Source: Cheilinus undulatus (lineage: Eukaryota > Chordata > Actinopteri > Labriformes > Labridae). Taken from it: a stretch of 64,000 nt of DNA. The stretch spans positions 369,501 to 433,500 of the forward strand of contig NC_054882.1 of assembly GCF_018320785.1 (NCBI RefSeq). Reading direction: 5' to 3'. The position numbers and the translations under genes were made by a program. Shown here piece after piece: positions 36,101 to 39,100 of this stretch (position 1 is the first letter of the stretch; the number at the start of each line of letters is the position of its first letter). Below the pieces are notes generated by a model that was not told the origin of the DNA, did not search any database, and saw only the letters and a program-made list of their open reading frames with translations.

Positions 36101-39100
36101 TCTGATTCTCAGGGTTCTGACTGTGTGAAGTATCCCAGGATAAAATCACTAGAGCAAACTCTATTAATTACTTCATCAGACTATTTACAATAAAAGTGAC
36201 CTAGCTCTCCTGTTCTTTCCAGATCAGAGTATTTCATCAAATACAGAAAGAGTACCCTCAATCTCAATCCAGCCACAATTTTAGGTCCAGAAACAGGATT
36301 ACATCCAGAAAGATCTATGGACCGGTGCTGCTTTTGTTGTTCTCTGGAGTCCACTTTATTTACTGGAATAATGTATTTTTTCTAGTCATTATTATCGATA
36401 CTTTATAGAGAAATGTATGTTGACCTCTGACCTTACCCTACTGAACCCTTACCGACCAATTAGGATGTTCCTTACTCTGCCTATAGCCTACAACAACCTA
36501 TGAGGGCCCCACTTTTGTGATGTCATCAGCCCCTGCCATATAAGGACTGGCATGTTGCCAGTAATATGAAAATAGTAAAATTAGTAAATAATGTCTCTAG
36601 TAATGTAAATATGAGTGTGGATGATATGTAAATGTTAAATTCATATTTCTATTTTTATTTTTTAATTTCATTAATTAGTCACAAAGTATCAAACAATTCC
36701 CTTTAGTTTTATTTATTCCTCTAAACCTGATAGGGATTCTGGACTACAGGATTCCTCTAAGTGTCCTCTTTCCATACAGACCAAGGTGATGTCTGTATGT
36801 TGAAGCATTAAGGAGTAGCAGCCTTTTATTGTATTGTAGCTCTAGGGCCATGGTTACCATGAGTCTCTGTTCCAAAATCACCTGGTCTCTTCCTGATAAA
36901 AGCTGGCTGTAAATCCTCATTGTATGTTCTAAAGAGTGTATGCATGTGACGCCACTACATACCCTCTCTTGTTCTCATCTTTGAACTCGATCTACCGAAG
37001 GCTTCATGCTTCAGTCCAGTTCAGTTTTCCAGCTAATCCCTCCCAGCTACAGTCATCTACAGGCCTCTGTTTCTCTGTAAACATTTGCAGCTACAGTGAG
37101 TCTGACAGTTTGAGAAGAAACTTCAGAGTGTTATCTTTCTAAAGACACCTTGGGGAAGCTCGGGCTCCACATGGTTCAAAAACAGTGTTCAGTTTAATCT
37201 AGATATGTTTAACCTGGAATTCTAATGGAATAATCTATTTGTGGTTGTCTCCCTCCAGTGGACAGTCTGGGTATCAACAACGACCTGAAGTACAAACTGC
37301 AGGACGTCCTGATCCCTGAGAGGCTGCTGACGCTGGGACACATGCTGGGGAAAGGTAACAACAACAACAACAACAACACCTGAGAGGCTGATTTTTGCTT
37401 TCACCTGTTATTGTCCAGGTGTTCATGACTGTGTTTCTCTTCCTACCTGTCCAGGTGTTCATGACTGTGTTTCTCCTCCTAGCTGTCCAGGTGTTCATGA
37501 CTGTGTTTCTCCTCCTAGCTGTCCAGGTGTTCATGACTGTTTCTCCTCCTACCTGTCCAGGTGTTCATGACTGTGTTTCTCCTCCTAGCTGTCCAGGTGT
37601 TCATGACTGTGTTTCTCCTCCTAGCTGTCCAGGTGTTCATGACTGTGTTTCTCTTCCTACCTGTCCAGGTGTTCATAACTGTTTCTCCTCCTACCTGTCC
37701 AGGTGTTCATGACTGTGTTTCTCCTCCTAGCTGTCCAGGTGTTCATGACTGTTTCTCCTCCTAGCTGTCCAGGTGTTCATGACTGTTTCTCCTCCTAGCT
37801 GTCCAGGTGTTCATGACTGTTTCTCCTCCTACCTGTCCAGGTGTTCATGACTGTGTTTCTCCTCCTAGCTGTCCAGGTGTTCATGACTGTGTTTCTCCTC
37901 CTACCTGTCCAGGTGTTCATGACTGTTTCTCCTCCTACCTGTCCAGGTGTTCATGACTGTTTCTCCTCCTACCTGTCCAGGTGTTCATGACTGTTTCTCC
38001 TCCTACCTGTCCAGGTGTTCATGACTGTTTCTCCTCCTACCTGTCCAGGTGTTCATGACTGTTTCTCCTCCTACCTGTCCAGGTGTTCATTACTGTTTCT
38101 CCTCCTACCTGTCCAGGTGTTCATGACTGTGTTTCTCTTCCTACCTGTCCAGGTGTTCATGACTGTGTTTCTCTTCCTACCTGTCCAGGTGTTCATGACT
38201 GTGTTTCTCCTTCTTCCTGTCCAGGTGAGTTCGGCTCAGTGAGGGAGGCATTCCTGAAGGCTGAGGACTCGTCTGTCCAGAAGGTGGCAGTCAAAGTGCT
38301 GAAATGTGAGTGTCATTGTTCATTTTCTTTGTTGGTGTTTAAATTATGACACAGGAAGTGCAGAGTGATGACATCAGAGAGGACAATGAGCCTTTCTCCT
38401 TAATCACTCAAATGCCAGTGTCAAAGTCAGACGTCCCCTACTCCGTCAAAGTCAGACGTCCCCTACGCCATCAAAGTCGGACGTCCCCTACGCCGTCAAA
38501 GTCAGATGTCCCCTATGCCGTTAAAGTCGGACGTCCCCTACGCCGTCAAAGTCAGACGTCCCCTACGCCATCAAAGTCGGACGTCCCCCACGCCGTCAAA
38601 GTCAGACGTCCCCTACGCGGTCAAAGTCAGATGTAGCTCGTCCTATATGTTAAGGAAGAGGGTTTAAAGACAGCAGCGAGTTGTAGACAAATCTGACCCT
38701 CACCGCCACGGCAGGGAGGGTAGATCAGCCTGATGATGTCATTGGAATTTGAGGAATTTGACATAAGGATCAATCATAAATGTTGATCATAGTTAAACAT
38801 CCAATCACTTTCATTGATTGATTAACTGATCAATAACAATTATACCATCCATCCACAGCTGACATCACCTCGTCATGTGATATCGAGCAGTGTCTGAAGG
38901 AGGCGGCCTACATGAAGGACTTCCACCACCCCAATGTTATCCAGCTAATCGGTAACCTTCAAACACCAATCACAGCAGGGGGGTGGGGTCTGGCTGTTTG
39001 ACTGACAACTCTGTTCCACCAATAGGAGTGAGTCTTCACCGCCGTCCTGGCCAGCGGCTGCCCATACCCATGGTCATTCTCCCATTCATGAAACACGGAG

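Follow-up and report, generated by a model that had tools for sequence, protein, structure and literature searches.

The tyro3 locus of Cheilinus undulatus raised the question of how an intron filled with copies of its own 3' splice site could have arisen, and which of these copies the gene would use. The window, that is, the whole stretch of 64,000 nucleotides that was analysed, corresponded to C18:369501-433500. On its plus strand, we modelled tyro3 at 21134-46400 as 18 exons in one open frame, starting with the first Ig-like exon seen and reaching the stop region; a run of 100 N (21035-21134) was located at the 5' start of the modelled stretch. The kinase part of the model matched the solved TYRO3 (3qup) with an E-value of 1.7e-131. 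Exon E11 (37259-37354, plus strand) ended at the donor AAAG|gtaaca, and E12 (38225-38305, plus strand), an 81-nt exon of symmetric phase starting with GTGAGT, completed the glycine loop and encoded VAVK. The host intron between them (37355-38224, plus strand) measured 870 nt to its last AG and 64 nt to its first AG, at 37418; the other intron flanking E12 had 553 nt. Additionally, the tyro3 introns contained open stretches at about 40970-41780 and 45170-45680, which we take to resemble Tc1-type transposase fragments, and a minus-strand reading frame at about 17489-17980 presumably resembled part of SRP54.

The host intron was almost entirely filled by an array (37412-38227, plus strand) of 23 full units, each 34 or 36 nt long, with 24 CCAG|GTG sites. 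Tandem Repeats Finder described it with a period of 36, 23.3 copies, 95% matches and a score of 1366, and its high-identity tandem units fell within the roughly 10-100 bp of a minisatellite. The sequence-only reading had placed the array at 37404-38225, correct to a few bases, and had rightly recognized that the 34- and 36-nt units were in register with the real acceptor, the genuine site being the last copy. The AG ends of the 24 sites ran from 37418 to 38224, with twelve spacings of 36 nt and eleven of 34 nt, and the final site directly adjoined the exon. The array repeated the AG/GT signals and spanned the exon-intron boundary, including the first three bases of E12. A branch-point-like motif was present in the form CATGACTG in 21 of the 23 full units and as CATAACTG or CATTACTG in two, while eight of the 23 carried an extra TAG ahead of the final CTGTCCAG. 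The genuine acceptor unit (38189-38224, plus strand) had TGAC at 38196-38199, whose A preceded the AG end by 26 nt, a pyrimidine tract and CCTGTCCAG. Ordered substitutions and an indel of 2 nt distinguished the units from one another, and the same ten bases, TGTCCAGGTG, stood at both ends of the array. Judging from these motifs, each unit is a nearly complete acceptor module with a putative branch point.

Homology pointed to 38224 as the genuine acceptor, because the junction GKG|EFG aligned gap-free to 3qup across this position and the 18-exon tyro3 frame read through it. We scored all sites with a small home-made matrix derived from the 16 other tyro3 acceptors of the model, which themselves scored 4.0-10.0. 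The genuine site reached 9.4, the top of the 24 and at least 1 bit ahead of every decoy, the first site reached 4.2, and the other 22 decoys lay at 7.4-8.4; for all AG of the scored span, array sites included, the 99th percentile was 7.6. Therefore, the decoys were respectable acceptors, and 38224 was the best of the 24. Its pyrimidine tract was also the least interrupted among the array copies. The earlier suggestion that the intron offered many equivalent acceptors was nearly right by these scores.

Slippage between these sites was mostly unproductive. When E12 was extended to each upstream acceptor, the frame stayed open only from 38188, 38152 and 38116, which would lengthen the glycine loop by 12, 24 and 36 residues, respectively, and the other 20 extensions ran into a premature stop. 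Although ten of the 24 sites were placed at a multiple of three from 38224, open products came only from 38224 itself and these three, so that the expectation of frame-preserving slips held for 3 of the 23 alternatives and failed for the rest. Skipping of E12 kept the frame at the cost of the loop and the VAVK lysine, and retention of the preceding intron led to a stop after a few codons. Proteins of these kinds would presumably be without kinase activity. As a separate observation, spliced E11-E12 would read AAAG|GTGAGT and could act as a donor, because E12 starts with GTGAGT.

Two more exon boundaries of tyro3 were found to be repeated. Namely, the E7 donor array (34370-34482, plus strand) had five AG|GTGAGY sites, at 34370, 34390, 34425, 34445 and 34465, only the first of which kept the frame, and a 73-nt duplication of 2.1 copies at E10 (35029-35179, plus strand) spanned the acceptor and the first eight exon bases, its upstream acceptor at 35098 leading to a premature stop. 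Among the 17 tyro3 arrays, which we merged ourselves from the repeat table, three overlapped an exon edge, where random placement would give 0.31 (P ~0.003); this comparison was made after the arrays had been seen. The arrays at 22929-23389 and 43329-43731 were near acceptors, and copying of these acceptors was not seen. A 30-nt array of 7.1 copies (44584-44797), most units of which contained an acceptor-like TTGTTCTTAG, preceded the genuine E17 acceptor at a distance of about 34 nt and did not contain it.

Together with the three in tyro3, we counted ten exon-edge arrays in seven genes of this genome. In iqgap1, 64 donors occupied about 2.2 kb, and the 20 bases before each decoy matched the exon end at 18.8 positions on average; the next exon joined as LLQ|TNPTY with no insertion, as in 3fay, and only 2 of the 64 donors were stop-free up to the donor. 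The selenos gene (Selenoprotein_S family, E 2.2e-11) had 36 donors, seven of them stop-free and five of these also in frame, and a second array with five exon ends at its next donor, the extra copies reading GTCTGT instead of GTACGT. In glrb, whose best match was the glycine receptor beta (E 5.7e-12), six acceptors were spaced 36 nt apart, and the decoys were identical to the exon start at 13-14 of 18 bases. An unnamed membrane-protein gene (L050), for which no Pfam match was found, had seven acceptors 39 nt apart in a unit with 15 exon bases. All six acceptors of glrb and all seven of L050 were in frame and open, and slips would add repeated peptides there. Moreover, hoga1 (aldolase match, E 9.2e-11) carried three copies of 41 nt, the third read from the sequence itself, and a kinase gene that we take to be Syk-like (L015) carried three copies of a 91-nt unit with 24 exon bases and the donor. 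Exon-edge sequence was better represented in the units of E10 (eight bases), iqgap1, glrb and L015 than in the three bases of E12.

The Syk-like array came from a sample chosen by kinase score rather than by arrays; the majority of the others had been detected by looking for splice-like arrays. The kinase sample comprised 38 loci and 186 kb, with at least one locus (L025) lying within another (L042). An array within 120 nt accompanied two of its 65 kinase-matched stretches, both in the Syk-like gene, one being the boundary array and the other not; boundary arrays were uncommon in this sample because only one was present among the 65. After the pattern searches, 5 of the 16 array loci inspected were located at a visible exon edge, which is not a rate since the loci were partly chosen by eye. 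Of six acceptor-pattern loci (L047-L052) picked among the first 100 listed of 641, L050 was at an exon acceptor, and the uncertain L051 was counted as not at an exon edge. Two of five donor-pattern arrays on C1 (L053-L058) were at exon donors, none of three further arrays (L063-L065) was at an exon edge, one being a coding repeat, and both loci picked as acceptor-like (the glrb locus, L068, and L069) were, with L069 forming a donor array on the opposite strand. Compared to the reversed control, there were 641 versus 64 places for the acceptor pattern, 1350 versus 345 for TCTGCAGG, 4174 versus 1964 for the donor AGGTRAGY, and 214 versus 39 for CAGGTAAGT, most of the listed CAGGTAAGT places being in one array on C5. 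We drew no claim of enrichment from these numbers because they count places rather than arrays and are dominated by a few long arrays; the strict acceptor pattern also misses the tyro3 array. One locus, L047 (C8:7690900-7693700), was rejected as a splice array because no exon edge was seen at either end and the opposite strand contained a possible exon. Its positions 554-2359 held 26 copies of a 69-nt unit in which, on one strand, GTAAGT resembling a donor alternated with TTTCCACAG resembling an acceptor.

The share of sequence in tandem repeats was 47% for the window, 31% for the tyro3 span and 3.0% for the kinase sample. The other boundary arrays were located on C1 at 0.15 and 58.6 Mb (contig of 59.6 Mb), on C4 at 53.3, 53.5 and 56.3 Mb (56.8 Mb) and on C17 at 43.2 Mb (44.4 Mb), which placed them within 3.5 Mb of contig ends among the matches listed, and our impression was that such arrays were dense toward these ends. 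The window itself began inside a 52-nt array of more than 13 kb (1-13643; 262.6 copies, 97% matches) that ran past the window start. At 56258-62750 it contained two arrays of 22-nt units, 3.4 and 3.1 kb long and inverted relative to each other, whose units were identical at 20 of 22 positions as reverse complements and which might possibly form a very large hairpin.

Several explanations of the E12 array can be weighed against these observations. An ordinary intronic minisatellite might have ended at the acceptor by chance, with the likeness of its units to the splice site being a coincidence or convergence. The high repeat cover of the window and of tyro3 would fit this, and so would the acceptor-like arrays away from visible exons (L047, L048, L049 and L052). 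However, the last unit was the genuine acceptor, with TGTCCAGGTG shared by both array ends, and coincidence was rather unlikely because of the further boundary copies in tyro3 and the exon-edge arrays in other genes. An artefact of assembly is scarcely credible: assemblies are error-prone at long tandem arrays, but the ordered substitutions and the indel among the units, as well as the boundary arrays at several unrelated loci, speak against it. A dispersed repeat or introner-like element was also considered and rejected, because a genome DNA search with the E12 unit, of a kind that skips simple repeats and common words, did not find the unit at unrelated places. Besides the array itself, this search returned five weak matches (64-69%) on C17 and C24, and the two of these regions that were examined were other minisatellites with periods of 15 and 42.

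Other readings would give the array a role in splicing. Leaky decoys could produce premature-stop products, so that the copy number would set the productive share of transcripts. That 22 of the 23 decoys scored no more than 2 bits below the genuine acceptor and that 20 of the 24 acceptors led to a premature stop agrees with such a working element, as does the similar outcome in iqgap1 and selenos. On the other hand, the parts of the amphioxus literature on comparable arrays that we drew on report no disturbance of splicing, and unproductive splicing was not a general property of boundary arrays because every slip in glrb and L050 stayed open; we consider a working element unlikely. A chain of recursive splicing through zero-length exons, with each unit serving as acceptor and then as donor, is very improbable. 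Every site was indeed AG|GT, and the genuine exon started as CAG|GTGAGT, but a recursive splice site unites a pyrimidine tract, an AG and a GTRAGT-like donor at one point, and the array copies read AG|GTGTTC, the GTRAGT core being present only at the exon start.

Thus, we regard the E12 array as probably a boundary-born minisatellite near a contig end, of the type known as mirages in amphioxus, which would be tolerated since the exon-proximal copy would normally be used. A short segment at the intron-exon boundary may have been duplicated in tandem, and slippage or unequal exchange would then have amplified its copies within the repeat-rich region near the contig end, so that a tyro3 intron of perhaps about 64 nt grew to the present 870 nt. 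The idea that the array grew from the splice site was already part of the sequence-only reading; it is well supported at other loci, where the units include exon-edge sequence, and for E12 it is a weaker proposal because the unit holds only three exon bases (GTG). E11 is most likely still joined to the exon-proximal copy at 38224, which would be kept in use because the protein would otherwise be lost. Accounts in PMC9225289 report pairing across the exon for sites next to introns longer than about 250 nt, and the 81-nt E12 between introns of 870 and 553 nt would tend to be recognized in this way. The array would be tolerated rather than used because the other copies give mostly premature stops. 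According to the same source, the upstream one of competing 3' splice sites is preferred overall, less so with long introns, and this preference would favour the decoys at E12 and counts against a simple proximity rule. The decoys also nearly matched the genuine site, and some were close to the donor, which likewise speaks against the proposed reading. It is conceivable, though decidedly doubtful, that splice-site minisatellites act as copy-number dials, an intron shorter than about 250 nt having its sites paired across the intron and thereby favouring the decoys, and growth shifting the choice to the exon-proximal copy. If so, the fraction of productive transcripts from tyro3, iqgap1 and selenos would depend on array length and vary between individuals. 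Natural arrays of 24 to 64 near-identical splice sites in conserved genes provide a test of how the spliceosome chooses among many sites, and they allow asking if proximity across the exon suffices and if repeat copy number alters splicing. Boundary minisatellites might also be a source of splicing variation that is missed by short-read surveys.

Competing 3' splice sites are familiar from NAGNAG and other short tandem acceptors. The E12 array resembled them in this respect and differed in having 24 sites at spacings of 34-36 nt, every one of them accompanied by a separate pyrimidine tract and branch-like motif. The model of Rogers (cited in PMC3087553, on whose account we rely) explains intron gain by the duplication in tandem of segments that contain AGGT; it shares with our case the duplication around AG|GT, whereas existing introns grew here and no new intron was seen. 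The human 6-16 gene (IFI6, G1P3) has a minisatellite with multiple splice donor sites (Nucleic Acids Res 1995, cited in PMC2572611), and its title, on which alone this likeness is based, suggests a parallel to the E7, selenos and iqgap1 donor arrays, in contrast to the acceptors of E12. A literature search in the open PubMed Central subset found no report of vertebrate acceptor arrays. The earlier statement that no named system of this kind exists did not stand, since the mirages of amphioxus are one, described in the parts of PMC3087553 and PMC3902484 that we drew on as tandem repeats over the exon-intron boundaries of Adh3, the globins BflGb6 and BflGb9, PGBD5 and troponin C. They are present at either intron end, with AG/GT in many units and unit lengths of 10-72 bp in Adh3; instability was seen at Adh, and normal RT-PCR products were obtained (PMC3087553). 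By its boundary-spanning repeat and its AG/GT signals, the E12 array can be classed as a putative vertebrate variant of mirages. It differs from them in belonging to a vertebrate, in its numbers (24 acceptors, and 36-64 donors at other loci of the genome), in the three exon bases of its unit, and in being known from the DNA of one assembly. What is new is the breadth: boundary arrays occur in several genes of one genome, three of them in tyro3, and boundary-born minisatellites, known from amphioxus, are thus present in a vertebrate at both intron ends.
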